A stretch of DNA of 35,436 nucleotides, from the NCBI GenBank assembly GCA_937873265.1, contig CALMVL010000044.1, positions 1,113 through 36,548 on the forward strand, in the 5' to 3' direction. This stretch comes from an uncultured Granulicella sp. (GTDB taxonomy: Bacteria > Acidobacteriota > Terriglobia > Terriglobales > Acidobacteriaceae). Below the pieces are notes generated by a model. That model ran no database searches. It was given only the letters and a program-made list of their open reading frames with translations, and had not been told where the DNA came from. How positions within the stretch are numbered: position 1 is the stretch's first letter; the number at the start of each line of letters is the position of its first letter. A program made the position numbers and the translations under genes. Positions 6,182-18,560 of the stretch are shown here, one piece after another.

Positions 6182-9100
6182 CTAGTGGATGTCGAATTGC
6201 TCGGGATGGAGCGTCGGGTCGGACTTGACCAGGATGGTCTTGCCCACGAGCTCCTCCATCTCCTGGAGCCAGCGCGTGCCGGGGCTTTTGAGCTGCTTGA
6301 CAACTTCCGGGTTGACGCGGAGCATCACGTCACCGCGATCGAGGTGTTTCTGCATCTTCCGCATCTCGACGAAGATGTCGTTGCAAATGGTTACAGGCGA
6401 CTTGGTCATGCCGGTTCCCTGGCAGATCGTGCAGGTTGTCGAAAGCGTCCGCTCAAGGCTTTGCTTGACGCGCTTGCGCGTGATGGCGACCAGGCCAAAG
6501 TCATTGAATTGCAGGACCTTCGAAGGTGCGCGATCCTTTTTGAGCTCGTCTTCAAGGGCAGCCATGACGCGATTGCGGTTTTTGCGCTCGTCCATGTCGA
6601 TGAAATCAATGATGATGATGCCGCCGAGATCGCGAAGACGAATCTGCCGGACAATCTCGGGAATCGCGTCCAGGTTGGTCTTGACGATGGTGTCTTCGAG
6701 GCGCGCGGTCTTGCCGACGTACTTACCGGTATTGATGTCAATGGCGACCAAGGCTTCGGTCTGGTTGATCACGATCGATCCACCGGACTTGAGCCACACC
6801 TTCGAGCGCAGCGCTTTATTGATCTCTTCGGTGATGCCGAACTGCTCGAACAGCGGCGTGTCCTTGCTGTAGAGTTTGACGCGGCGGATGAGCGACGGCT
6901 GGAAACGTTGGAGGAAGCGAAGAATGCGCTCGTAATCGGTTTCGGTGTCGACCCAGATGGCGGAGAAGCTATCAGTTACCTGGTCGCGTAGGATGCGCTC
7001 GACGAGGTTGAGGTCGTGGTAGATGAGCGCGGGGCTTTTGGACGACTCAGACCGCTGCTTGATGTCGGCCCACAGATTGAGCAGGAAGCGAAGGTCGGAG
7101 CGGAGTTCCTCTTCGGTGGCTCCGGCTCCGGCGGTGCGAACGATAAATCCGCCCGAGGCGTCGCCTTTTTCGGACAGCAGGATCTCCTTGAGGCGGCGAC
7201 GCTCGCCGTCCGACTCGATTTTGCGGGAAACGCCGGTGTGGTTGACGGTGGGCATGAAGACCAAAAAGCGGCCCGGAAGCGCGATATGCGAGGTGATGCG
7301 CGCGCCTTTCTTGGCGATGGGCTCTTTCGCGATCTGAACAAGCACCTCCTGTCCTGGCTTCAGCAGATCGCTAATCGCGGGCAGGTTGGTGGTCTGCATG
7401 GAGGATCGGCCGTCGCGTCGGCCGGGGCGTGGGCTGCGGTCCGGATTGCGGTCGGGGCTGCCCGAGGCGCGGTCGAAGCCACCGGAGCTGCGGCCGCGGT
7501 CACGGCCACGGTTGTCGCCGCGGCGGCCAAAGTCGCGCCGGCTGTCATCACGGCGACGATGGTCGCGCCGTTCCGGCTCGTTGCCGGCCGAAGTGGCGGG
7601 CTCGGTACCCCGAGCGACAGCGCCGAACGAAGCTTCGGAGGTGTCGGTCAGATCGGCGGGAACGACGTCGTCGTCGGAGAGGGATGGATCGGTCGACGCA
7701 AAGTCTTCGTCTTCGAGTTCGTCCGCCTGGACGTAGAGGCCGTCGTGCGCGGCTTCCTCTTCTTCGAGGATCTCATCGTCGTCCATCTCGCCGGGCTCGT
7801 TGGGCTGCGTGATCTGGTCAATCGAAAGTTCACGGATCATGGTGCCAAGGTCAGCCACGCCCTCAAGTGTTTCCTGTTCGTATTCGGCAAATTCGTGAGC
7901 GCTCGCAAGCAGAGTTGGCGACTCAAACTCCTCGTCGTCGAGCACCTCTTCCTCGAGGGCGCCGTCGCCGGGGGCAAAGGAATGGAGGTCGTCTTCGCGC
8001 GACGTGGACGGGCGATGCGTTTCAGCAGACTCCGTCGACAGGGAGGCGGTTTCACCTTCCGTCAGGGCCGTAGGTTGGGCGGTGGCGCGAACTGCGGTCT
8101 CGTGCTGGATCGGAGCACTGGGTTCTGAGAACTCGCCCTCGGGCGGCGGGAGGGGCACTTCTGACAGCATCTCGCCCCCGGAGTTGATGGAGGTAAACTC
8201 GTGCCGAGGGCCTTCGGAATCGTGATCCGGGAAGAGTTCGACGGGCGGCTCGGCCTCCGGCAGATCGGTGTAGTTGTGAGGAGCTTCAAAATTCTCGGTG
8301 TGTAGGGGCGTGAGAGGGATATCAGGCTTGGGTGTTATGGTGTGGGCGCTCGAGAGCTCTGGCTGAGCGGAGATGGTACCTTGGCTCGCGTGCTCTTCGA
8401 GATCATCGACCGCAAGGGAGTTCGCGTCATCCGTAGGGGGCGCGCTCTGGCGATAGGTGCTGGGCGGGTTAGGGTCAAAGCGCAGGAATGCGGAGGCTTC
8501 GACCGGCTCGTATTCGGCAGTGGCCTCGGGTTGCGGCGCGGCCTCGTGCTCGATTTCGGCTGCGGGGACCTGCGATGGATCTGCTGCAGCAGCGAGCTCG
8601 GGGACCTCGCTCGGCACTGGAGCGACGCTCAAACCATCGGCGTCCGCGACAATGGACGGTGTGGGCGGCGCGACTTGCGCAGGAGCAGGACGAGGTGCCT
8701 GGGAGCGCGACTCGAAACGACTCTCAGAGCGTGGGGCGGACTGGGTTGCTGCGGCCCCACGCGAACGGCGTTGCAGGTTCTCACCGGGTAACACATCGCC
8801 ACCGTCCCATGCGCCAGGAAGGATGAACTCGGTCGAGGGCTTAGGGACGGATGCGGTCGGCGCGAGTACGGTGGCGTCCGCGGCGGACGCGGGACGATAC
8901 TTCGAGAGCGACTCGCCGGGAAGGATGACCGGCTCGCCAGCGGGCTCGATGTCGGCGACCTCGTCAAGCGTGGGGGTGGACTCCACACCGTAAAGCGAAC
9001 GGGACGGAGCGAAGCCACGCGGTGCCCGAGGCGCGCGCCGGTCACGATCACCGCGACCTCCGCGGCCACCATCACGGCTTCGGCCACCACGGTCCCCGCG

Positions 9101-10135
9101 ATCGCGATTCCGGTTCCGGTCGGAGTTGCCGTTCGAGGCCTCCCCGGAGGTTTGGAGTGGCTTACCTGACTGGCTGTTGTCGGCTTCAAGGGCGCTTCGC
9201 AGATCGGCTTGCGCATCGATATCGAAGGTTCCGACTGCCTCTGCTTCGGTTGTATCGAAGGCATCCGCCGGGCTGCTGAGGTTGTAACCTGGGTCGAAGC
9301 TGAGGGGTTCGTTCACCAAGCTGCCCGCCGGCTCGAAGCCAGTGGGTTCCATGTAGGTGTCTTGCTTCGCTCCGATCTCCGGGGCTACATCTTGACCAGT
9401 TGTTTGGCCAGGGCCGCGACCACGGCGACGGCCACGCCGACCACGCCAGCGGCGGCTGCCATCGGCAGCAAGCGCGCCTTCGCCGAGAGAACTGGCGTCC
9501 ATCGGCGAGCTCTCAGCGATGTCCCCGGTCAGGTCGAGGCTGCCTCCCTCGGGAGAGAACACACTCGATGGTGGGAGGCCTGGAAGTTCGGAGGTGACGC
9601 TGGGGCGACGGTCGCGGTTGCCCGAACGGTCGTCGCGGTTGCCGGATCGATCATCACGGCGACGGCCCCGGTCGCGACGATCGCCACCGCGATCCACGCC
9701 AGTGTCAGCGCTGGTACGGTCCGATCGTTCAGGAAGTCGGGACTCCCGCTCGGCTGAGCGGGCGATCTCGCTTTCAGCCGGACCGTTCTCGGGCGCTCCG
9801 GCAGTGCGGGCATCTTCCCGCCGCCGGTCATTTGCACGTGCGCCTTCACGGCCTTGGCCGCGCGAGCTGCTCCCGCCGGATTCAAAGTCGGCGGACTCGC
9901 CCGCTTCTTCTTCCATGAAATCAGTGATGTAGAGGAAGGCGTCGCGCTCGAGGCCGATATCCACGAAGGAGGACTGCATGCCTGGAAGAACGCGGGTGAC
10001 TTTGCCGTTGTAGATTGAGCCGGCTAAGGTGTATTCGTTCTCGCGCTCGTAGTAGATCTCGGCGAGTTCGTCATTTTCAACAATGGCGAGACGCGTCTCA
10101 TGCGGCGTGGAGGAGATGTAGATCTCTTTGGACAT
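6182..10135 (-). CDS. rng: ribonuclease E/G with a giant disordered insertion inside the S1 domain
   Basis: A 1317-residue endoribonuclease of the RNase E/G family, which cleaves AU-rich single-stranded RNA and matures rRNA. Residues 1-76 are the N-terminal strand and the first half of the S1 domain (GKVTRVLPGMQSSFVDIGLE, then FLYITDFM). The S1 domain resumes at about 918 (LPAISDLLKPGQEVLVQI) and runs straight into the RNase H-like and DNase I-like catalytic core. Catalytic aspartates are D1133 (AIDINTGKYVG) and D1177 (IIIIDFIDMD). The zinc-link cysteines are C1235 and C1238 (CTICQGTG). Without the insert the protein is about 477 residues, RNase G size, with no C-terminal scaffold. Residues 77-917 are low-complexity: Arg/Gly/Asp-rich blocks near 100-170, 230-250, 340-385 and 860-912, an acidic block around 700-820, and LPGE motifs at 403-454. 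The gene lies downstream of rodA in the mre cluster, after a 561-nt gap. Confidence 0.93.
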   Translation of the reverse strand: MSKEIYISSTPHETRLAIVENDELAEIYYERENEYTLAGSIYNGKVTRVLPGMQSSFVDIGLERDAFLYITDFMEEEAGESADFESGGSSSRGQGREGARANDRRREDARTAGAPENGPAESEIARSAERESRLPERSDRTSADTGVDRGGDRRDRGRRRDDRSGNRDDRSGNRDRRPSVTSELPGLPPSSVFSPEGGSLDLTGDIAESSPMDASSLGEGALAADGSRRWRGRRGRRRGRGPGQTTGQDVAPEIGAKQDTYMEPTGFEPAGSLVNEPLSFDPGYNLSSPADAFDTTEAEAVGTFDIDAQADLRSALEADNSQSGKPLQTSGEASNGNSDRNRNRDRGDRGGRSRDGGRGGRGDRDRRAPRAPRGFAPSRSLYGVESTPTLDEVADIEPAGEPVILPGESLSKYRPASAADATVLAPTASVPKPSTEFILPGAWDGGDVLPGENLQRRSRGAAATQSAPRSESRFESRSQAPRPAPAQVAPPTPSIVADADGLSVAPVPSEVPELAAAADPSQVPAAEIEHEAAPQPEATAEYEPVEASAFLRFDPNPPSTYRQSAPPTDDANSLAVDDLEEHASQGTISAQPELSSAHTITPKPDIPLTPLHTENFEAPHNYTDLPEAEPPVELFPDHDSEGPRHEFTSINSGGEMLSEVPLPPPEGEFSEPSAPIQHETAVRATAQPTALTEGETASLSTESAETHRPSTSREDDLHSFAPGDGALEEEVLDDEEFESPTLLASAHEFAEYEQETLEGVADLGTMIRELSIDQITQPNEPGEMDDDEILEEEEAAHDGLYVQADELEDEDFASTDPSLSDDDVVPADLTDTSEASFGAVARGTEPATSAGNEPERRDHRRRDDSRRDFGRRGDNRGRDRGRSSGGFDRASGSPDRNPDRSPRPGRRDGRSSMQTTNLPAISDLLKPGQEVLVQIAKEPIAKKGARITSHIALPGRFLVFMPTVNHTGVSRKIESDGERRRLKEILLSEKGDASGGFIVRTAGAGATEEELRSDLRFLLNLWADIKQRSESSKSPALIYHDLNLVERILRDQVTDSFSAIWVDTETDYERILRFLQRFQPSLIRRVKLYSKDTPLFEQFGITEEINKALRSKVWLKSGGSIVINQTEALVAIDINTGKYVGKTARLEDTIVKTNLDAIPEIVRQIRLRDLGGIIIIDFIDMDERKNRNRVMAALEDELKKDRAPSKVLQFNDFGLVAITRKRVKQSLERTLSTTCTICQGTGMTKSPVTICNDIFVEMRKMQKHLDRGDVMLRVNPEVVKQLKSPGTRWLQEMEELVGKTILVKSDPTLHPEQFDIH

Positions 10136-10420
10136 GGGTCTGTACTCTTTCTGCCCGGCCGATAGCGGCGCGGGCGAGGCAGAGGCACAGAGAGGGTCGC
10201 AGGCTGCGCCGGGCCGACAAGCGGCTACGGGCAGTTTACTCCGGTGGGTGGGCAGGTTCCTGGAACTGCGGCTCGGTGAACGACGATCGGTGCGGGTACA
10301 GACAACAGATCAGCCCGGCCGGCGCCGGAAAACAGCGCGGGACGGGTGGCACGTGGAGTATCGAAAACACGAGAGAACGCCTGGGGCGCGGGCACGCATG
10401 CGGAGTTTGTGACCAAAACA

Positions 10421-10438
10421 GCCTCATACGTATGAGGC
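10421..10438. repeat. 18-bp perfect palindrome, possible operator
   Basis: GCCTCATAC followed directly by its reverse complement GTATGAGGC, with no spacer. Such a continuous palindrome suits a dimeric DNA-binding regulator better than an RNA hairpin. It lies about 285 bp upstream of the rng start. No second copy was noticed in the window. Confidence 0.45.
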
Positions 10439-10508
10439 GGGGCCGTTTGCCGTCCGGATGCGGTCATTTGCCTGGAACCTGCCCGGCCAACGGAGTTTGA
10501 CGATCTCT

Positions 10509-10526
10509 GGCCGGCCGGCCTTTTTT
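10509..10526 (+). terminator. terminator-like GC block with T6 on the plus strand
   Basis: GGCCGGCCGGCC is self-complementary and followed by TTTTTT. It can also pair with CCGGCCA about 25 nt upstream (7 bp). Both flanking genes are on the minus strand, so no known plus-strand transcript ends here. Confidence 0.3.
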
Positions 10527-10696
10527 CTAAAATCGTTTGCCGCTCCCGGCGCCGTGCGCCAAAGGAAAGCGGGGTCGGTACGGATTGGCATCTACAGCCG
10601 TTCACGTCCCTGTTACATAGTATTGCACTAAAGTCGCTGCAAGCGCCAGAGTCGGTCCAGCTGGTCCGGTGCGAAGAGGGTGGGCGGCGGCTTGGC

Positions 10697-11800
10697 TCAG
10701 TTGACGAAGCGTCGCATGCGGACGTTCATGACGATGCCCAGCGCGAGAAAGGTGAAGAGGATGGATGAGCCGCCGTAGCTCATGAGCGGCAGGGGGATTC
10801 CCGTGACGGGCATGAGGCCGACGACCATGCCAACGTTGACCGCGATCTGAAACAGAAGCACAGCCACGATGCCCATGACCAGGAACGTGCCGGGCAGGTC
10901 CGAGGCGGTCTGCGCATTCTGGATGAGCCGGGTAAGAATGAGCAGGTAGAGCAGAAGAACGCCGATCGCGCCAACGAAGCCGTGCTCCTCGCAGAAGGCG
11001 GCGAAGATGAAGTCGGTGTACGGAATGGGGAGGAAGTCGCCCTGGGTCTGCGTTCCCCGGTTTGCGCCCTTGCCCCAGATGCCGCCGGAGCCGACCGCGA
11101 TGAGCGATTGGCGGATCTGGTAGCCGGAGCCGCGCGGGTCAGAGTCGGGGTTGAGGAAGGCGGTGAGCCGGGCGCGCTGGTAGGGCTTGAGCAGCTTGCC
11201 GGTGCTCCAGCCGATGCCGCCGACGAGCAAGATAGCGGCGAGCAGGACGCCGGCCTGCCGGATACGGAGTCCGCCCAGAAACAGACCGCAGACGAGGATG
11301 GGCAGGTAGGTGAGCGAGGTGCCGAGGTCTGGCTGGCGGAGTACGAGGATGAAGGGCAGGCCGACCAGGAGCGAGGCCTTGCCGATCTCCGGCCAGGTCA
11401 GGTCCCTGCCGACGACGCCCCAGAAGAATCGGGCTACCACCACGATCAGCACCAGCTTAACCCACTCGGACGGCTGGAAATGGATGCCGCCACCCAGGTT
11501 GATCCAGCGGCGGGCGCCCATGACCTTTGCGCCGACCAGTTTGACGGCGACAAGCGAGACGACGCTGATGATGTAGGCCGGTGTCGCGAGGTCGATCAGA
11601 CGGTGGTAGTCGATGAGCGAGACGAGAAACATGAGGCCGAGGCCGAAGGCCAGGAAGCCGGCCTGTTTGGCGTCGAAGCCGTGGAACTTGGTGTGGAGGG
11701 TTGCTGACTTGATCTCGACGACGCTGACCATTGACAGAACGAGGACGAAGCCGAGAAGGACCCAATCGAAGTCACGAAAGCGGGAGATTGTGCGAGCCAT
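10697..11800 (-). CDS. rodA: rod shape-determining protein RodA (SEDS peptidoglycan polymerase)
   Basis: A 367-residue polytopic membrane protein of the SEDS family with about ten hydrophobic segments. Family blocks are clear: GARRWINLGG...FQPSEWVKL, the LVLRQPDLGTSL loop, GSGGIWGKG, FLPIPYTDFIFA...EEHGF with the catalytically important aspartate, and the C-terminal GIPLPLMSYGGSS. RodA polymerises lipid II glycan strands together with the class B PBP2 encoded by mrdA. The ATG at 11800 (MARTISRF) is preferred over the TTG at 11833. The TTG lies inside a hairpin that ends the upstream gene, and a TACACT box sits 10 nt before the ATG. It belongs to the mreC-mreD-mrdA cluster but is separated from mrdA by about 2.8 kb carrying two unrelated genes. 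Confidence 0.95.
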   Translation of the reverse strand: MARTISRFRDFDWVLLGFVLVLSMVSVVEIKSATLHTKFHGFDAKQAGFLAFGLGLMFLVSLIDYHRLIDLATPAYIISVVSLVAVKLVGAKVMGARRWINLGGGIHFQPSEWVKLVLIVVVARFFWGVVGRDLTWPEIGKASLLVGLPFILVLRQPDLGTSLTYLPILVCGLFLGGLRIRQAGVLLAAILLVGGIGWSTGKLLKPYQRARLTAFLNPDSDPRGSGYQIRQSLIAVGSGGIWGKGANRGTQTQGDFLPIPYTDFIFAAFCEEHGFVGAIGVLLLYLLILTRLIQNAQTASDLPGTFLVMGIVAVLLFQIAVNVGMVVGLMPVTGIPLPLMSYGGSSILFTFLALGIVMNVRMRRFVN

Positions 11801-11810
11801 GGACCGCTTC

Positions 11811-11816
11811 AGTGTA
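11811..11816 (-). promoter_or_regulatory. candidate -10 box (TACACT) for rodA
   Basis: TACACT ends 10 nt before the rodA ATG on the minus strand, with no convincing Shine-Dalgarno between. Identical boxes precede mrdA and two esterase genes. rodA needs its own promoter because a hairpin separates it from the gene upstream. Confidence 0.35.
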
Positions 11817-11832
11817 TCGCCGCCCGGATGCA

Positions 11833-11866
11833 AGACCGCCCGAGCGGGAACGCACTCGGGCGGTCT
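11833..11866 (-). terminator. hairpin between the glutaminase-like gene and rodA
   Basis: A perfect 12-bp stem (11833-11844 with 11855-11866, AGACCGCCCGAG and its complement) around a 10-nt loop. It starts 22 nt past the stop of the glutaminase-like gene. No U-run follows on the minus strand, so it could be a Rho-assisted terminator or an attenuating structure. Confidence 0.5.
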
Positions 11867-11887: not shown

Positions 11888-13993
11888 CTACTTTGCGGGG
11901 ACTGCGGCGCGCCTCCACTTGTCGGTGAGCTGCTTATCGGCAAGCGCCTTGATGAAGACGCCGCCGACGACGCTGCGGGCCTGAAAGCCGATCTGCTTGC
12001 CGGTTTTGGTGTCGTACCAGTCGGTGAGCGGGACGCGGGTCGGCGATTCGTTGATCCACAGAGCGATGGGATCCATGATGGCATTGAAGTCGGCCGGGTT
12101 GGAGGCGAGGGTTGCCGTCCACAGGGACCAATCCAGCTTGGTGTAGTCCGCGCGGCTGTCGAGCGGCAGGCCGTATTGATTGAGCTTGGTTTTGTAGAAG
12201 ATGATCTCGCTTTCACGCACAGACGGCGGGAAGAGGTTGTAGCCGAGGATCTGATCCCAGACCAGGTTGTATTTCTGGCTCCAGGTGTTGGGCGAATCGT
12301 ACGCGAGCTTGTAGTGGTCGCCTTCCTTGTCGAGGTCGATCCACTTGGCCGCGTAGCTGTGGGCGGTTTTCGAGTACTCGCGGGCCTCGGCGTCCTTGTG
12401 CAGGAGGCGGGCGAGATCGGCGTAGGCCTCGAGCGCGTCAATGGCCTTGAGGGCGAGATTGGCGTTGTGGGTGACGTGACCAGCGAAGTCGTCCGTGGTG
12501 AGCTGCTTTTCGGGGTCGAGGCCGTGATCTTTAAGAAACTGCGCCCACTGGGTCAGCTTCGGCCAATACTGGGCGGCGAGGTCGGCCTTGCCCTCGGCGC
12601 GAGCGACGGCGTCAATCATCAACAGCATGTTGCCGGACTCTTCGACCGGCATCTGGTTTTCTTCGGTCTTTTCACCCCCACCGTAGGTCTGGCCATTGGC
12701 GAGAGGGTAGGTGCCGAGATCGTGGGGGGAGAAGGGGAAACGCCAGCGGTTCGGAAGCGCGGTGTACTCCATCAGGGGGCGAAGCTCGGCTTCGAGAAGG
12801 ACGGGGTTGAAGAACAGAAAGAGCGGCGACGCGGGATAAAGAACGTCGACCGTGCCGATGCTTCCGTTCGAGAAGTTCTCCTTGCCGAAGACGAGCGGCT
12901 GGCCGTCAACATCGGCGACGAAGCCGTGCGCGGCCCAGGCCTGGCGGTAGGCGAGGATGCAGAGATTGGCGTAGTTCTGGCCGGCGGTGTGGACGAGATC
13001 GGCGGTGAGCGTGGTATCGAGCTCGTTGCCTCGCTGTTCAAGCGCCGGGAACTCACGTTCGGCCTGGTCCAGCATCTGTTCGGTCGTTTCTCCGTTGCGT
13101 TGCCAGTACGGCTTCAAATTGCGCTCGAGATATTGGATTGCGTAGCCCTCGGTATAGGAGACCAGAAGGTGCCGCGTCGCCGCATTGCCGGCGACGGTGT
13201 GGAAGAGCAGCTCGGTTGCGAGGTGCGCGTCGCCCCGGCCGACAATCGGCGAGGCGTCCATGGCGTCGGCCTTGGGCAGCATGCCGGTGGTGACGTAGGC
13301 GCCGTCGGGGGCGACGGAAGTTTCGCGAACGATCGCCGAAACGGATTCCTCGTCCTTGGGCACGGATAGGTGGAAGTAGCCCCAGTCGATGCGCAGGTCG
13401 TCGCCGGAGCGATTGAGCACGCGCTGCTCGCGGGAGCCAACGGAGAGCACGGTCTGCGTCTCGGTCTGGTTGCGCGAGTAGGTGACGGCTTCGCCGGGGG
13501 CATTTACGGCAATGATCGGACCGACGTCGAAGAGGACCGAAACATCGTTATGACTCTGGCCGTCGGTGGATTTAACGGTGAAGCTGACGTAGGTGACAGG
13601 GCGCGAAAGGAGGTCGAGATCCGACAGGATGGTTGGCGTGAAGAATACGAGATCGAGCTCCACGCCGCCGCCAGTGAAGCTGTAGCGTGTGTGCGTCGGC
13701 GTGACGGCGAGCGAGGTCTGCTGCATGGCGGGGATCTCGCGGGGGGAGCTGCCCATGAAGCGCATGGTTTTGCCGTCAACGCGAAGGAGGCCGGCGAGCG
13801 GCTGCGGCTTGCCTGTCCAGTGCACGGTATTGGAGGCCGTGAGTTCGTTCGTGTCGGACCAGATGGAGAAGTAGGGGTTGTGGGTGACCAGCGGAACGGC
13901 GGGGGGACGCAGCGGGCCTCCCTGCGGCGTTTGGGCGGAGAGTGCGACGGCGGTCGAGAGCAGGACGGCGGAGAGGAGAGATGGTGTGGACAT
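11888..13993 (-). CDS. secreted glutaminase A-like protein (DUF4965/DUF5127/DUF1793 architecture)
   Basis: A 701-residue exported protein with signal peptide MSTPSLLSAVLLSTAVALSA and cleavage near AQT. The mature part begins RPPAVPLVTHNPYFSIWSDTNEL, the usual N-terminus of fungal-type glutaminase A (GtaA) homologues. A beta-rich N-terminal domain (about 25-270) is followed by an alpha/alpha-barrel-like part with WAAHGFVADVDGQPLVFGKE, FPFSPHDLGTYPLANGQ, ENQMPVEESGNMLLM and a C-terminal DWYDTKTGKQIGFQARSVVGG. Family members occur in fungi, Bacteroidetes and acidobacteria. Only some have demonstrated glutaminase activity, so the substrate is uncertain and a glycoside-hydrolase-like role is possible. 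It interrupts the mrdA-rodA cluster, is divergent from the VOC gene, and is followed by a hairpin. Confidence 0.82.
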   Translation of the reverse strand: MSTPSLLSAVLLSTAVALSAQTPQGGPLRPPAVPLVTHNPYFSIWSDTNELTASNTVHWTGKPQPLAGLLRVDGKTMRFMGSSPREIPAMQQTSLAVTPTHTRYSFTGGGVELDLVFFTPTILSDLDLLSRPVTYVSFTVKSTDGQSHNDVSVLFDVGPIIAVNAPGEAVTYSRNQTETQTVLSVGSREQRVLNRSGDDLRIDWGYFHLSVPKDEESVSAIVRETSVAPDGAYVTTGMLPKADAMDASPIVGRGDAHLATELLFHTVAGNAATRHLLVSYTEGYAIQYLERNLKPYWQRNGETTEQMLDQAEREFPALEQRGNELDTTLTADLVHTAGQNYANLCILAYRQAWAAHGFVADVDGQPLVFGKENFSNGSIGTVDVLYPASPLFLFFNPVLLEAELRPLMEYTALPNRWRFPFSPHDLGTYPLANGQTYGGGEKTEENQMPVEESGNMLLMIDAVARAEGKADLAAQYWPKLTQWAQFLKDHGLDPEKQLTTDDFAGHVTHNANLALKAIDALEAYADLARLLHKDAEAREYSKTAHSYAAKWIDLDKEGDHYKLAYDSPNTWSQKYNLVWDQILGYNLFPPSVRESEIIFYKTKLNQYGLPLDSRADYTKLDWSLWTATLASNPADFNAIMDPIALWINESPTRVPLTDWYDTKTGKQIGFQARSVVGGVFIKALADKQLTDKWRRAAVPAK

Positions 13994-14648: not shown

Positions 14649-16694
14649 CTAGTTTCCGGTCGGCTCGGCTTCCGCAGGCGCGCGCTTTGTGGCCGCCTCG
14701 CCCGCCGCCGGAGGCGGGTTGATTGCAGGAGCCGGGACGGCCGGAGTTGCCGCGACCTCGCGCAGGTTGCCGGCGCGCAAGCGCTGCTTGTTGACGAAGG
14801 CGTCGATGACCTCCGCCGCCAGCTTGGCGGAGTTGTTTCCCCAGTTGCCGTGCTCCCACAGGACCGCCACGACGATATCCGGATTGCGGCGCGGCGCCAT
14901 GCCGACGAACCATGCGTTCGGGTCGGTCTTGTGGCCCTTGCCGGCGCGGGCGAGGGCGTCGTGACTCATCACCTGCGCGGTGCCGGTTTTGCCGGCGAAG
15001 TCGATTCCGTCGAGGTGCGCGATGTAGGCGGTGCCGATCGGGCTGGAGGTGACGTTGGCCATGGCATCGGTGATGGTCTGCCAGTTTTCCGTGGAGAGCG
15101 GGATAGTTTTGTCGCCAGATCCGGGAAAGGTCTCGTGGACCGCTTCGAGCTCCTGCGGGGGCACCTCGTCGGGGAAGACGACGTGGGGCCGCCGCAGAAC
15201 GCCGCCCGATGCAATGCCGCTGAGCGCCCGCGCGAGCTGCACGGGAGTCGCCGCGACCGCGCCCTGCCCGATGCCGACGGAGATCGTCTCACCGGCGTAC
15301 CACTTCTCGCGCTGGGTCTTGAGCTTCCACTGGGTCGACGGCATCGTCCCCGTCACCTCGTCCGGCAGGTCGATTCCTGTTTTCTGGCTTAGGCCGAGCG
15401 AGGTCGCGTACCGGGCGATGGTGTCGATGCCCAGGCGGTTCGCGAGCGTGTAGTAGAACGTGTCGCAGGAGTACGGGATGGCGGTGTGGATGTTGACGGG
15501 GCCGTGGTGACGGTCGCAGGCGAAGAAGTGGCCGTAGAAGGTTGCGCCGCCGTTGCACTGCACGTGCATGTCCTGCGCGACCCCCTCCTGCAGGCCCGCG
15601 ACGGACATGATGATCTTGAAGGTGGAGCCGGGGGCGAGTTGCGCCTGCGTGGTTTTGTTCAGCAGCGGATGGTCGGGGTTCGCGAGGATCTCGTTCCAAT
15701 AGGTTTTGGTGAGGTGCCCGGCGAACTGATTGGGATCGAAGGTGGGCCGCGACACCATCGCCAGCACCTCGCCGGTATGCGGATCGAGCGCGACCATGGC
15801 CCCGATTTTCCCCTGCATCGCGATCTCGGCCGCGCGCTGGATGTCAAGGTCGATGGTGAGCTTCAGATCCTGCCCCGGAACCGCGAGCGTCTGGCCGACC
15901 TCGCCCAGCTCTTTTCCGTGCGAGTTGACGACGATGTCGCGCGATCCGTCGGTGCCGCGCAGAACGGCGTCGTAGGTCGCTTCGACGCCGGAGCGGCCGA
16001 CCACGTCGCCGGGGTCATACATGGCATAGCGCGAGTCATTGAGCATCTGCTCGGAGACCTCGCCGACGTACCCGATGAGGTGGGCGGCGAAGCCGTCGCG
16101 GGGGTAGAGGCGGCGCTGCTCGTCGCGGGTTTCGAGCTCGGGCAGCTCGTCGCGGTGCGCGGCGATGAAGGCCTGCTCGTCGGGGTTGATGTCTTGCTTG
16201 ATGGGAACGGACTGGAACTTGGGCGCGGCCTCGAAGCGGCGAAGGAGAAGCTGCAACTGATCCAGAGGGAGATGGAGGCCCGCGGCGATGATCGGCAGAT
16301 CCGCCGCGATGTCGCGGCCGCTGTCGCGCGCCAGATAGCAGGTCACCGAGGGGTAGTTGTCGACCAGCAGCCGGCCCTCGCGATCGAACAGGCGGCCGCG
16401 TGGCGCAAGGATCGGCACCTTGCGGATGCGGTTGGCTTCGGCGAGCACGCGATAGTTCTCCGCGCCGACGATCTGGAGCCGCCACAGACCGGCGGCGAGC
16501 ACCAACAGGACGAGGAAGACAAAGTACTGCGAGGCGTGGAGCTTGCCGGGAGCGAGCTTTTCTTCCCTTGCCGAGAGCCTGGCGGCGAGGCGAGCGGACG
16601 GGCGCACCGGAGCCGGCTCGGCGATGTCGGGATCGCGCTGCCGTCGAACGAAACGACGAAGTGAGTGCAGCGGGTTCTGCCGCTGGGGAGGCAT
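14649..16694 (-). CDS. mrdA: penicillin-binding protein 2 (class B transpeptidase)
   Basis: A 681-residue peptidoglycan DD-transpeptidase. A cytoplasmic basic N-terminus of about 50 residues precedes one membrane anchor (about 55-72, YFVFLVLLVLAAGLW). Next comes the PBP dimerisation/pedestal domain (RIRKVPILAPRGRLFDREG, YPRDGFAAHLIGYVGEVSE). The transpeptidase domain has S357-TFK360 as the nucleophile motif, S409-C-D as the SxN-equivalent (SxD is common in PBP2), and K569-TGTA. It ends in a Pro/Ala-rich tail of about 45 residues. It cross-links the lateral wall together with RodA. mreD lies 44 nt upstream. A TACACT box sits 8 nt before the ATG and no Shine-Dalgarno is evident, so it may also have its own leaderless transcript. 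Confidence 0.95.
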   Translation of the reverse strand: MPPQRQNPLHSLRRFVRRQRDPDIAEPAPVRPSARLAARLSAREEKLAPGKLHASQYFVFLVLLVLAAGLWRLQIVGAENYRVLAEANRIRKVPILAPRGRLFDREGRLLVDNYPSVTCYLARDSGRDIAADLPIIAAGLHLPLDQLQLLLRRFEAAPKFQSVPIKQDINPDEQAFIAAHRDELPELETRDEQRRLYPRDGFAAHLIGYVGEVSEQMLNDSRYAMYDPGDVVGRSGVEATYDAVLRGTDGSRDIVVNSHGKELGEVGQTLAVPGQDLKLTIDLDIQRAAEIAMQGKIGAMVALDPHTGEVLAMVSRPTFDPNQFAGHLTKTYWNEILANPDHPLLNKTTQAQLAPGSTFKIIMSVAGLQEGVAQDMHVQCNGGATFYGHFFACDRHHGPVNIHTAIPYSCDTFYYTLANRLGIDTIARYATSLGLSQKTGIDLPDEVTGTMPSTQWKLKTQREKWYAGETISVGIGQGAVAATPVQLARALSGIASGGVLRRPHVVFPDEVPPQELEAVHETFPGSGDKTIPLSTENWQTITDAMANVTSSPIGTAYIAHLDGIDFAGKTGTAQVMSHDALARAGKGHKTDPNAWFVGMAPRRNPDIVVAVLWEHGNWGNNSAKLAAEVIDAFVNKQRLRAGNLREVAATPAVPAPAINPPPAAGEAATKRAPAEAEPTGN

Positions 16695-16738: not shown

Positions 16739-17263
16739 TTACTCGATGTGCTTTGTGCGATCGAGCAGGAGAAAGATCGGCATCGCGACGACGGTGTTGA
16801 CTCCCGCGCGCAACAGCTCGTATGGCCACAGCAGCTGCTCGTGACTGAGACCTAGCAGGCGCTTCACGATCAGGAACAGGAGCAGGGAGTGTCCCAACGA
16901 GAAAAGAAAATTCATCAATACCCGGGTCGTCCACGCCTCCACGTCGACCTGTACGCCGATGGACGCGGCGATGTAGCCGATCACCGTGAGGCTCATGCCG
17001 TTTACGCCGATGGGCTGGCCGGTGAGCGCATCCGCGAGCAGACCGATAACCGCTCCGGTGAGCGCGCCGGAGATGGGCGAACGGCGTGAGACGGCGAAGA
17101 AGATGGTGATGAGCAAGGGAAGTTCGAGGATGGCGAGGCGGTAGTTGAACCTGGGCAGCAGCGCCTGCAGCACAACGGCGGCGAGAGGCACAAGGATGGC
17201 CACCGCGGGATTGAAGCTGTGCTCTTCGAGCTCGCGGCGCGAGGTGTAGCTGTGGGTGGTCAA
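16739..17263 (-). CDS. mreD: rod shape-determining protein MreD
   Basis: A 174-residue protein with about five membrane segments. Conserved features are the start RRELEEHSFNPAVAILVPL, RLAILELPLLITIFFAVSRR, the GAVIGLLADALTGQPIGVNG block and the C-terminal LWPYELLRAGVNT. MreD links MreC, MreB filaments, PBP2 and RodA in the elongation complex. The only plausible in-frame start before the conserved N-terminus is TTG at 17263; the open frame further upstream is antisense-like overlap with the mreC tail. It follows mreC by 40 nt and precedes mrdA by 44 nt. An out-of-frame 6-codon ATG frame ends at the TTG start (TTGA overlap), which could couple translation. Confidence 0.88.
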   Translation of the reverse strand: MTTHSYTSRRELEEHSFNPAVAILVPLAAVVLQALLPRFNYRLAILELPLLITIFFAVSRRSPISGALTGAVIGLLADALTGQPIGVNGMSLTVIGYIAASIGVQVDVEAWTTRVLMNFLFSLGHSLLLFLIVKRLLGLSHEQLLWPYELLRAGVNTVVAMPIFLLLDRTKHIE

Positions 17264-17303
17264 GGGTGGCGCTCGGTCATGGTGTGTGGGGCTTCGCGCA
17301 CGG

Positions 17304-18560
17304 TCAGGGCTCCGGGTTGGTCTGAGGCGGCGGCGCAGGTTGCGGAGGAGCCGCTCCACCGGGAGTGAGACTGGAAGCTGGTGGGGTTGCTCCGGGCGAG
17401 TAGCGATCGGAATGCAGGGTCGGCAGAGGCCGCGGCACGGCGCCGCCGGGTTCCTTGGCATCGGGGGTGCCGGGCGTGGCTTTGGGTTTCGCCGTAGCGC
17501 TCGGGTCCGCAGCGGGTGGGGTAAGACTCGGCAGGCGATCGGCGACGATCTCCGCGGCAGACCGCGCTTCCTCCTGCTTTTGCTGCTCCGCGGCAAGCCT
17601 GGCTGCCGCGGCTTCGGCAACCGCCTTCTCCGCTGCGGCGCGTGCGGCAGCGGTCGATGCGGCCGCAGTCGCCAGCTCGGCCTGCACACCGGCGGGCAGC
17701 TTCGGTTCGGTTCCCGTGATTACCAGGACTTCCTCCAGCTGAAACAGGTTTGCCGCCGGCTTGACGCGAAGGATCGTGTACGGCTGGTGTGTCGGATCAG
17801 GGACGATGGACTGGACGGTGCCCACGGGCAGACCGCGCGGAAAGATCTGGTCTCCTCCCGAGGTGAGCACCGGCTCGCCCGGCTTGATGCGGTCGTCCTG
17901 GGTGAGATTGGTGATCAGCACCTGACCCGCGGTCGAGCCACGCACGATGGCGCGGATGCGCGTGTTTGCCAGAATGACCCCCGCACCGGAGGTCTGATCG
18001 TTGATGAGCAGCACCTGTGCGGTGTGAGGTGCCGTGGCGGGAAAGATGTCGCGGATCTTGCCCACGATGCCATCGGGCGTGATGACCGGCATGTCGGCTC
18101 GCAGCCCGTCGGCCGCGCCTTTGTCGAGGTAGAGCACGCGAGAAAGATCCGATCCGCTGGTGCCTACCACCTGCGCGGCGACGGTGGAAGCGACGTAGTG
18201 TTCCTGAAACGCGAGTAACGCCTGCAACCGCTGGCCCTGGAGCGCGTCTTCGGCCAGCGCCGCTTGCCGGAGACGAAGCTGCGCCATCTGCTGCTCTAAG
18301 GCGACGTCCTGTTGACGGACGTTCCGCAGATCGATGTAGTTGGACCAGCCGAAGCGCACGATATGCCCGGCGAAGTGCACCAGGCGCTCGACCGGCGACA
18401 CCAGCCCCACCACCCACGAACGCGCCAGCGTCACGTTGCGGCTGTCGGCGGCGCCCGACTCCACCGGCCGGCGAATCTGCACGGCCAGGCCGATCGCCTG
18501 CACGACCAGCAGGCCGACGAGCACCAGGGCGTTCCGGAAGCGTGAGAGAAAAGAGTCCAT
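17304..18560 (-). CDS. mreC: rod shape-determining protein MreC with long Ala/Pro-rich C-terminal extension
   Basis: A 418-residue bitopic protein. There is one N-terminal membrane anchor (about 10-27, NALVLVGLLVVQAIGLAV), a coiled-coil segment (about 75-115, rich in Gln/Leu/Arg) and a periplasmic two-barrel domain (about 120-285) with GSDLSRVLYLDKGAADGL, GVILANTRIRAIVRGS and SGGDQIFPRGLPVG. About 130 further residues follow: an Ala/Glu helix-forming run (residues 285-340) and a Pro/Ala/Gly-rich tail (341-418). E. coli MreC is about 367 residues, so the tail is an addition. MreC scaffolds PBP2 in the elongation complex. mreB is not upstream; instead an esterase gene ends 68 nt before, so mreC is the first elongation gene here. 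Confidence 0.93.
   Translation of the reverse strand: MDSFLSRFRNALVLVGLLVVQAIGLAVQIRRPVESGAADSRNVTLARSWVVGLVSPVERLVHFAGHIVRFGWSNYIDLRNVRQQDVALEQQMAQLRLRQAALAEDALQGQRLQALLAFQEHYVASTVAAQVVGTSGSDLSRVLYLDKGAADGLRADMPVITPDGIVGKIRDIFPATAPHTAQVLLINDQTSGAGVILANTRIRAIVRGSTAGQVLITNLTQDDRIKPGEPVLTSGGDQIFPRGLPVGTVQSIVPDPTHQPYTILRVKPAANLFQLEEVLVITGTEPKLPAGVQAELATAAASTAAARAAAEKAVAEAAAARLAAEQQKQEEARSAAEIVADRLPSLTPPAADPSATAKPKATPGTPDAKEPGGAVPRPLPTLHSDRYSPGATPPASSLTPGGAAPPQPAPPPQTNPEP

Follow-up and report, generated by a model that had tools for sequence, protein, structure and literature searches.

The window, a stretch of 35,436 nucleotides, carries an ORF of 1317 aa on its minus strand (6182..10135) encoding an RNase E/G in which about 840 residues are lodged inside the S1 domain. 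The locus raises the question of whether this insert is real and, if so, what a segment of such length may do within the RNA-binding domain of an endoribonuclease.

The RNase E/G of the window and its divided S1 domain

Profile matches and the presence of the key residues place the protein in the RNase E/G family. Its catalytic core was matched by PF10150 at 1.4e-101 (340 bits, cut-off 25.5), TIGR00757 was passed with 472 bits (cut-off 325.95), and the ORF is the only PF10150 match in the window's genome, which is 73% complete. Residues 1–76 (9908..10135, minus strand) comprise the RNase H-like N-terminal strands and the first S1 half; residues 77–917 (7385..9907, minus strand) are the insert, predicted to be disordered from alignment, composition and structure prediction; and residues 918–1317 (6185..7384, minus strand) hold the second S1 half, the 5′ sensor, the DNase I-like/RNase H core, the Zn-link and the C-terminal small domain, as indicated by profile and phmmer matches and by invariant columns. 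In the phmmer alignment with E. coli RNase E (2vrt_A), residues 5–76 of the window's protein correspond to chain residues 4–76 and residues 917–1250 to 86–419, the insert standing opposite a gap of 9 residues. The first-pass annotation had the S1 domain break after FLYITDFM (residues 67–74) and resume some 840 residues later, at LPAISDLL (from residue 918), and this alignment bears it out; the coordinates then given, 7384–9907, agree with residues 77–917 to within one base. The plain loop was put at about 25 residues, which is slightly high, since the loops of the acidobacterial RNase E lineage measure 12–22 aa by the anchors used. The loop of the window protein is 847 by short-RNase G profile anchors.

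Residues D1133, D1177, R1000, T1001, F57 and F67 are invariant in an alignment of 63 sequences (A1). By equivalence to E. coli residues, we take D1133/D1177 to be the catalytic Asp pair, R1000/T1001 to belong to the 5′ sensor and F57/F67 to be the S1 aromatic residues. Both Cys columns of the Zn-link are conserved at 90% or more in the same alignment, and the window protein has CTIC at 1235–1238. It stops directly behind the small/thioredoxin-like domain (C-terminal extension of −2 by the short-RNase G profile), and so lacks the disordered C-terminal extension of an RNase E with a C-terminal scaffold. An intact core and zinc-link, with the protein ending right after them, had indeed been described.

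The two S1 halves were also expected to come together in the fold. In the predicted structure of a relative from the same order (L097, insert of 325 aa) they complete an S1 fold, and the model matched the E. coli S1 domain 1sn8_B across the insert (Z 9.1, 77/80 residues, 3.1 Å) and 4oxp (Z 17.1, 179/200 residues, 3.3 Å). The expectation thus holds for the relative; in the model of the window protein (residues 1–1200), the S1 blocks have pLDDT values of 43–59, a confidence too low to tell the fold. The absence of a fold from the Foldseek or VIA lists was not taken as evidence that it is absent.

By its place in the tree, the enzyme is RNase G-lineage: it groups with short RNase G proteins and apart from the RNase E lineage, with a support of 100 for the deep split. 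The best NCBIfam match is PRK11712, at 481.6 bits below the equivalog cut-off of 594, and for this reason we use the name RNase G-lineage rather than RNase G. The earlier picture of an RNase E whose tail had moved was therefore abandoned, as the acidobacterial RNase E proteins whose scaffold is C-terminal form a separate paralogue lineage.

The E. coli RNase G gene (rng/cafA) lies near mreBCD, and the mre/rod linkage expected of this subfamily was found at the window locus. The next Pfam-identified gene upstream is rodA (FTSW_RODA_SPOVE; 10697..11833, minus strand), and Pfam matches further upstream identified mrdA/PBP2 (14649–16694), mreD (16739–17689) and mreC (17304–18560). Of the 87 S1-insert loci with enough flank, 75 also have RodA encoded upstream in the same orientation. 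The window enzyme thus resembles E. coli RNase G in its place near mre genes, in the lack of a C-terminal extension and in its best NCBIfam match; neither a long insert nor a scaffold role is known for E. coli RNase G. The stretch that separates rodA from the RNase gene contains a small conserved ORF or leader (10225..10467, minus strand). A covariation test for a structured RNA leader gave 15 pairs, of which only 2 changed on both sides; upstream of the RNase gene, Rfam gave no match at gathering and two sub-threshold matches at permissive E.

Distribution of the insert in Acidobacteriota

S1 inserts were found in 100 acidobacterial proteins, encoded by 99 genomes, and range from 114 to 948 aa. 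An alignment of homologues had been proposed as a check, and it shows the position of the insert to be conserved across the Acidobacteriota group, with its length spread over this range. Within the genus the inserts measure 605–948 aa, and in each of the 36 measured members the reading frame runs through the insert uninterrupted. The genome of the window is an assembly of 343 contigs, 73% complete, which would leave room for a fault of sequencing, assembly or frame. The same architecture occurs, however, in 35 other genus members, G023 and G032 with genomes of a single contig among them, and also in named isolates, Edaphobacter lichenicola for example; its recurrence in these genomes refutes an artefact, whose probability we consider negligible.

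In the tree, all 62 insert proteins from Acidobacteriota fall together (SH-aLRT 83), and no short-loop protein lies among them. Another tree comprised 92 of 121 proteins, with the genus thinned; the tree of the 62 insert proteins was built without 32 loci of the genus, nine near-copies and L328, whose loop was unreliable, and took in 16 of 80 named loci. Among these 80, the loop was not measurable in five (L217, L231, L233, L245 and L251). Locus L228 is titled Rhodanobacteraceae, but its core identity of 92% and its insert of 780 aa led us to treat it as an acidobacterial MAG under a wrong label. Some relatives seemed to have long N-terminal extensions, a reading that was rejected: the start codon lies at or adjoining the core start in nearly all of those listed, and the extra frame was therefore taken as read-through in high-GC DNA.

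Composition and conserved islands of the insert

The insert (residues 77–915) contains 10.3% R, 0.6% K, 20% D+E, 9.2% G and 9.7% P, and the residues WCFIYVLN amount to 17.8% of it vs 35.9% of the core. In bins of 30 residues, 91–120, 151–180, 211–240, 331–390, 451–480 and 841–930 are net-basic, and all bins from 481 to 840 are net-acidic, with an acidic block at about 511–840 (7616..8605, minus strand). A search for tandem repeats in the insert found none. By composition and charge bins, the insert agrees with the charge-block disordered region of a BR-body scaffold. Like the C-terminal scaffold of RNase E, it is long and disordered, with Arg-rich and acidic blocks and short conserved motifs; unlike that scaffold, it is located inside S1 and not after the core.

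This composition would suit an arm that only binds RNA and forms condensates, in which specific partners would not matter. The genus inserts have Arg-rich, Lys-poor blocks (R/K 16.6, 35 genus loci) alternating with acidic ones, as in BR-body RNase E. Fixed islands and a class-wide motif, present in 73/73 same-class and 0/27 other-class inserts, would be superfluous for condensation driven by composition, and we regard such an arm as quite unlikely to be the whole explanation.

Genus conservation showed nine insert islands, all on the minus strand, to be under selection at the amino-acid level, as judged from codon variation. Synonymous codons vary in all 104 conserved non-Met/Trp insert columns of the genus, and there are four runs of at least 6 conserved columns, where shuffling the order gave 0.03 on average. 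Island 1 (residues 218–241, 9413..9484), GEGALAADGSRRWRGRRGRRRGRG, is basic and contains Trp; across the 36 genus sequences it matches the window at a mean of 0.97, with synonymous codon changes in 21/21 columns, and its RRWRGRR-type sequence occurs in 36/36 genus members and in 12 of 18 other members of the family. Island 2 is RAPRGFAP (residues 370–377, 9005..9028). Island 3 (residues 401–414, 8894..8935), EPVILPGESLSKYR, includes at 405–413 the motif LPGEx[LI]x[KR][YF], which a motif scan found class-wide, and island 4 (residues 443–456, 8768..8809), WDGGDVLPGENLQR, is a looser second LPGE copy. Island 5 (residues 541–566, 8438..8515) is EYEPVEASAFLRFDPNPPSTYRQSAP, and island 6 (residues 722–730, 7946..7972) is PGDGALEEE. 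Island 7 (residues 753–776, 7808..7879), EQETLEGVADLGTMIRELSIDQIT, has a short helix predicted with low confidence at 764–768; island 8 (residues 860–871, 7523..7558), RRRDDSRRDFGR, lies in a basic block before S1 resumes; and island 9, RSSMQTTNLPA (residues 910–920, 7376..7408), spans the insert–S1 junction. No insert island matched a published docking motif.

LPGEx[LI]x[KR][YF] was found in all 73 inserts of Terriglobia, a label for the same-class set that rests on named close relatives (Edaphobacter) and NCBI lineage, against a shuffled mean of 0. It occurs in none of the 27 inserts of other classes, nine of which have another motif, and a FERxxDD-type motif is found in part of the inserts of a neighbouring group. 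At the DNA level, the degenerate pattern of the LPGE motif was present in 82 of 101 class genomes (reversed control, 1/101), about once per genome. The possibility that the motif is common to other cell proteins was rejected, since all 30 loci checked among the matches in these 82 genomes lie inside the RNase ORF itself.

A tolerant loop at the surface that had lengthened neutrally would account for the wide variation in insert length, for the 461 of 847 insert columns in which the window residue is common to 20% or fewer of genus sequences, and for the 535 in which the commonest residue occupies no more than half of the rows. The purifying selection acting on the islands, the fixed LPGE motif and the absence of short members from the 62-protein group argue against a loop devoid of function, which is very improbable. 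A disordered insert had been noted in the first-pass annotation; the insert is real and predicted to be disordered, has short conserved scaffold-like islands, and occurs in proteins without a C-terminal scaffold.

A putative scaffold on the S1 domain

We propose, with a probability of about 0.6, that the protein is an RNase G-lineage endoribonuclease with a degradosome or condensate scaffold inside its S1 domain. The core would tetramerise like that of E. coli RNase E, and four scaffolds would therefore emerge from the S1 domains, where RNA enters. RNA would be held by the Arg-rich blocks, which with the acidic ones would drive self-association; condensate formation by the insert is inferred from composition. 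The islands may dock partner enzymes, so that RNA cut by the core would be handed at once to an exonuclease. The insert would take over the role of the RNase E C-terminal tail from a different attachment point.

The other RNA-decay enzymes of these lineages are consistent with this proposal. PNPase was over its cut-off in 35 of 41 relatives and the RNase J-type TIGR00649 in 38 of 41; RNase Y was over its cut-off in none of the 41. The draft genome of the window has only a PNPase fragment (profile 3–200, below cut-off). The scaffold would most likely sit at the RNA-entry domain of the only RNase E/G in lineages that have PNPase and RNase J and in which no RNase Y was found. PNPase is the first candidate partner because the PNPase of these lineages ends in an Arg-rich/acidic tail of its own: 105–134 aa with one Lys and 11–14 Arg in 11/11 genus genomes looked at, 49–55 aa in 7/7 same-order genomes and 9–13 aa in 2/2 others of the class. 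Tail and insert lengths correlate across clades (rho 0.83, n=20); within the genus the correlation is not clear (rho 0.52, p 0.10, n=11), and outside it rho is 0 (n=9). None of the 20 PNPase tails contains LPGE.

None of the 99 insert genomes has an RNase E-lineage paralogue, against 22 of the 56 genomes with a short-loop RNase G; the contrast is weak, since the sample was picked, with two-copy genomes fetched on purpose, and the insert side is one clade. Loss of RNase E alone does not call for an insert, because 34 of the 56 short-RNase G genomes have no RNase E-lineage gene among the fetched loci and still no insert. The idea of a C-terminal scaffold relocated with its motifs was rejected, as no insert motif was found in the C-extensions of the 10 acidobacterial RNase E-lineage proteins scanned (13 further extensions lie outside the scan). 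In 4 of these 10 C-extensions, an xWW sequence with basic neighbours lies at or near the end, which we presume to be like the Caulobacter PNPase motif.

Inserts of about 50–150 aa at the same S1 site are described for alpha-proteobacteria and plants in PMC4245959, and the position alone is therefore not new; the alignments of the window protein with E. coli and of L097 with 4oxp place the acidobacterial insert there. According to PMC4245959 and PMC5436854, one alpha-proteobacterial insert is partly visible in crystal 4OXP, and Wolbachia RNase E has an insert of about 50 aa in a protein of short total length. The Caulobacter crescentus insert (4OXP) is likewise charged and predicted disordered at this place, and Caulobacter RhlB binds an RNase E fragment holding it (PMC4245959). 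Unlike the published inserts, those found here reach 114–948 aa, belong to the RNase G lineage and have motifs of their own; the window protein, with about 840 aa, thus falls outside the alpha-proteobacterial and plant class, which is RNase E-lineage. Caulobacter RNase E also has a C-terminal scaffold, which the acidobacterial insert proteins lack. The chloroplast/plant enzyme Arabidopsis RNE shares a disordered S1 insertion, which its full activity requires as cited in PMC4245959, but a far shorter one. The claim of a distinct architecture is thus retained for size, exclusivity and motif content, and position has precedent in PMC4245959 and PMC5436854. Within the open-access literature searched, the size of the insert, its content and the fact that it is the protein's sole long stretch of disorder, in genomes that lack an RNase E-lineage paralogue, look new.

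These precedents also suggest an autoregulatory gate, in which the acidic block (about 511–840) beside the RNA channel would mimic RNA and shut the active site until displaced by RNA or a partner, the islands docking on the enzyme itself. In PMC4245959, the Caulobacter insert is partly helical and protrudes into the RNA site with acidic residues that could mimic RNA, and deletion of the Arabidopsis insert is cited as impairing the enzyme. The uniformly net-acidic bins of 481–840 would fit, as would the LPGE stretch, which is predicted with higher confidence than its surroundings in L097 (residues 171–190, motif 176–184; pLDDT blocks of 59–62 vs 34–46) and has a block of 52 in the window model (401–410). 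However, the second LPGE copy of L097 (221–229) lies in a block of only 41, and a gate does not need 300–950 residues, nor lengths of 605–948 within one genus; we consider it unlikely.

The scaffold has precedents in RNase E, where disordered regions with charge blocks drive the formation of BR-bodies and the coupling to PNPase (PMC10412687, PMC12691583). Extended to a whole clade of Acidobacteriota, the proposal is tentative, at somewhat under even odds: the degradosome scaffold for mRNA decay would run through the RNase G-lineage S1 domain, having arisen once beside the RNA entry and lengthened towards Terriglobia, and would replace the absent RNase E, docking partners through otherwise undescribed motifs (LPGEx[LI]x[KR][YF]; FERxxDD-type) together with the Arg-rich PNPase tail. 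Acidobacteriota are described as being among the soil phyla of bacteria with the highest abundance (PMC13362970). In a 2011 survey (PMC3071783), the Fibrobacteres/Acidobacteria group has an RNase E/G of 511 aa and no degradosome is predicted for it, so that the hub of RNA decay in an important group of soil bacteria may have been overlooked or misjudged.

The clade offers one orthologous gene with insert lengths graded from 114 to 948 aa, a near-invariant motif suited as bait, and insert-free neighbouring groups, which makes the need for C-terminal attachment of a scaffold directly testable, as well as whether a scaffold that sits on an RNA-binding domain links the capture of RNA to the recruitment of partners. 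Outside Acidobacteriota, an Anaeromyxobacter protein (L249) shares a long S1 loop, of 255 aa, differs in also having a C-terminal extension, of 104 aa, and occupies a separate place in the tree.

An insert inside the S1 domain of the RNase E/G

The RNase E/G gene of the window is an ORF on the minus strand (6182-10135), whose translation has 1317 aa. Its product is identified as an RNase E/G by a Pfam match to PF10150 at residues 953-1223 (E 1.4e-101) and is above the cut-off of TIGR00757; the top NCBIfam match is ribonuclease G PRK11712, yet under the equivalog cut-off, and the C-terminal thioredoxin-like domain PF20833, at 1234-1316, is slightly below its own (23.4 vs 26.8 bits). In the alignment to E. 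coli RNase E (2vrt_A), residues 5-76 correspond to 4-76 of the chain and residues 917-1250 to 86-419, so that about 840 residues occur where the E. coli enzyme has few. The first-pass annotation, which described about 840 disordered residues splitting the S1 domain at 7384-9907 and suggested a degradosome scaffold, had placed this insert correctly to within one base. The invariant alignment columns include F57, F67, K943, R1000, T1001, D1133 and D1177, and the Zn-link cysteines are almost invariant.

Whether the two S1 halves come together was examined in a structure model of L097, the RNase of a same-order relative with an insert of 325 aa (54-row alignment). The core was well predicted, with most ten-residue blocks above 85, and the insert poorly. 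After trimming of the long low-confidence stretches, VIA aligned 1sn8_B, the S1 domain of E. coli taken alone, with residues 39-434, which span the insert, at Z 9.1 and 3.1 A over 77 of 80 residues, and 4oxp (S1 plus 5' sensor) over 179 of 200 residues (Z 17.1, 3.3 A). Thus, the halves join in L097. In the AlphaFold2 model of the window's own protein, the S1 blocks reached only low confidence (pLDDT 43-59).

Distribution and ancestry of the insert enzymes

PF10150 matched in 58 of the 61 close genomes and in 256 of the 297 genomes sampled from the phylum; 120 loci and then 60 further ones were retrieved, and S1 loops and terminal extensions were measured with a profile from 12 short acidobacterial RNase G proteins. 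Three kinds of protein were distinguished: an RNase E-lineage set of 25 proteins, whose S1 loops measure 12-22 aa and of which 23 are extended at the C-terminus by 52-315 aa; short RNase G proteins with loops of 9-92 aa (excluding locus L328, whose loop measurement is unreliable); and 100 proteins from 99 genomes (two in genome G310) with inserts of 114-948 aa and C-terminal extensions of at most 1 aa. All 36 measured members of the genus, which lies at or near Edaphobacter (class Terriglobia) as judged by 93-94% core identity to named relatives, carry inserts of 605-948 aa. The insert is therefore kept in position across relatives and varies in length. This is a clade-wide architecture, in which the only long disordered region of an RNase G-lineage enzyme is inside S1.

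The measurable named loci from outside the Acidobacteriota have loops of 12-109 aa, except for L228, which is titled Rhodanobacteraceae but was treated as mislabelled (core 92% identical), and L249, an Anaeromyxobacter RNase E/G that combines an S1 loop of 255 aa with a C-terminal extension of 104 aa. Since L249 has both, the mutual exclusion of insert and extension is limited to the acidobacterial sample. L249 is possibly an independent case of an S1 insert.

In a catalytic-core tree of 155 proteins, 62 acidobacterial insert proteins formed one group (SH-aLRT 83), with proteins bearing 24-92-aa loops beside it and the RNase E lineage apart (support 100); inserts measure 114-313 aa in the early branches and 307-948 aa in Terriglobia. 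A 92-row tree under a better model likewise set the RNase E lineage apart. No RNase E-lineage gene was found in the 99 insert genomes, which have one PF10150 match each (two, both insert-type, in G310), vs 22 of 56 short-RNase G genomes, a non-random set in which two-copy genomes were chosen for retrieval; among the retrieved loci of the other 34 none was found either, and the contrast amounts to one clade.

In the window, mreC, mreD, mrdA and rodA precede the RNase gene, and a glutaminase A-type gene (GtaA_6_Hairpin; 11888-13993, minus strand) lies between mrdA and rodA of this rod-shape cluster. Where enough flank was available, a same-strand RodA precedes 75 of 87 RNase genes of the insert type, 7 of 18 short acidobacterial ones and none of the 9 of the RNase E lineage. 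E. coli rng also lies near mreBCD, and this linkage supports an RNase G ancestry of the insert enzymes.

In a table from 2011, the Fibrobacteres/Acidobacteria group is listed with an RNase E/G of 511 aa and no predicted degradosome (PMC3071783), and in the open-access literature searched we found no report of long S1 inserts in Acidobacteriota. Shorter ones are described in PMC4245959 (about 50-150 aa, in alpha-proteobacteria and plants) and PMC5436854 (about 50 aa, in Wolbachia RNase E). The insert first noticed in the window is real and more widespread than had been thought, but its position is not unprecedented; its size, exclusivity and motifs are without precedent as far as we searched.

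Composition, conserved motifs and possible function

Residues 77-915 contain 10.3% Arg, 0.6% Lys and 20% Asp+Glu, and order-promoting residues are half as frequent as in the core (17.8% vs 35.9%). AlphaFold2, run on residues 1-1200, gave 831 of them a pLDDT below 50. The insert is thus predicted to be disordered and patterned, which its composition supports likewise. Net-basic 30-residue bins are 91-120, 151-180, 211-240, 331-390, 451-480 and 841-930, and all bins in 481-840 are net-acidic.

The main rival explanation is that this acidic block acts as a gate closing the RNA channel, which we consider unlikely. The Caulobacter S1 insert, partly helical, is described as extending into the RNA site, and deletion of the Arabidopsis insert as impairing the enzyme; the same source reports that RhlB binds the Caulobacter RNase E fragment 1-274, which contains the insert (PMC4245959). 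Disordered regions of RNase E in which charge blocks alternate drive BR-bodies (PMC10412687, PMC12691583). A degradosome or condensate scaffold is the best-supported reading of the insert, with a probability of about 0.6.

Among 36 genus sequences, nine islands are conserved (residues 218-241, 370-377, 401-414, 443-456, 541-566, 722-730, 753-776, 860-871 and 910-920), while in 461 of 847 insert columns the window's residue is shared by 20% of sequences or fewer. Synonymous codon variation occurs in all 104 conserved non-Met/Trp island columns, which indicates selection on the amino acids. The motif LPGEx[LI]x[KR][YF] is present in 73/73 same-class inserts (Lys in 72), and was absent from shuffled inserts and from all 27 other-class inserts. 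Searched as a degenerate DNA pattern, it matched 82 of 101 class genomes (reversed control, 1/101), inside the RNase ORF in all 30 loci checked. Nine of the 27 other-class inserts (L134-L138, L180, L181, L339 and L352), from acidobacterial classes of a neighbouring group, have FER[VI]xDD[DE] in its place, followed in several by G(E/D)(M/L)LKD. RRWRGRR-type basic motifs occur in 36/36 genus and 12/18 other family members. The putative scaffold thus carries short motifs specific to each lineage.

The leader and the decay machinery

A leader that is strongly conserved in the genus (10225-10530, minus strand) lies between rodA and the RNase gene. The profile from 35 aligned genus sequences matched 35/35 genus loci, largely by construction, 10/18 in the rest of the family and 0/19 in the class beyond it. 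A CCGGCC/GGCCGG hairpin stands about 48-56 nt upstream of a conserved ATG (44/45), where a small ORF begins M[IN]ASG..TAPPQ; downstream, spacing is in frame in 42 sequences (one match doubtful, three divergent ones excluded). Neither third-position bias in this ORF nor an Rfam family for the leader was found. Possibly, the leader is translated and regulates the RNase gene.

Among 41 relatives, none had RNase Y above the cut-off and 35 had PNPase above its cut-off, which in the window's draft genome was found only as a fragment; 38, including the window's genome, had an enzyme of the RNase J type. A disordered-looking, Arg-rich, Lys-poor C-terminal PNPase tail measures 105-134 aa in 11/11 genus genomes examined, 49-55 aa in 7/7 same-order genomes and 9-13 aa in 2/2 other class members, and this Arg-rich/acidic tail contains EPNFNR in 10 of the 11 (loci among L356-L375). 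Across clades, a longer tail goes with a longer insert (rho 0.83, n=20), but within clades the correlation is not clear (n=11, rho 0.52, p 0.10; n=9, rho 0). Given the tail and these lengths, PNPase may be the insert's partner, as a first candidate and no more.

PNPase-docking motifs differ by lineage, being a beta-strand in E. coli, GWW in alpha-proteobacteria and RRRRRRSSA in cyanobacteria, as described in PMC12489471. Four of ten acidobacterial RNase E-lineage C-terminal extensions (L154, L160, L165 and L174) have RRLWW, KRHWW, KRRWW or RPLWW at or near the end, resembling the GWW motif.
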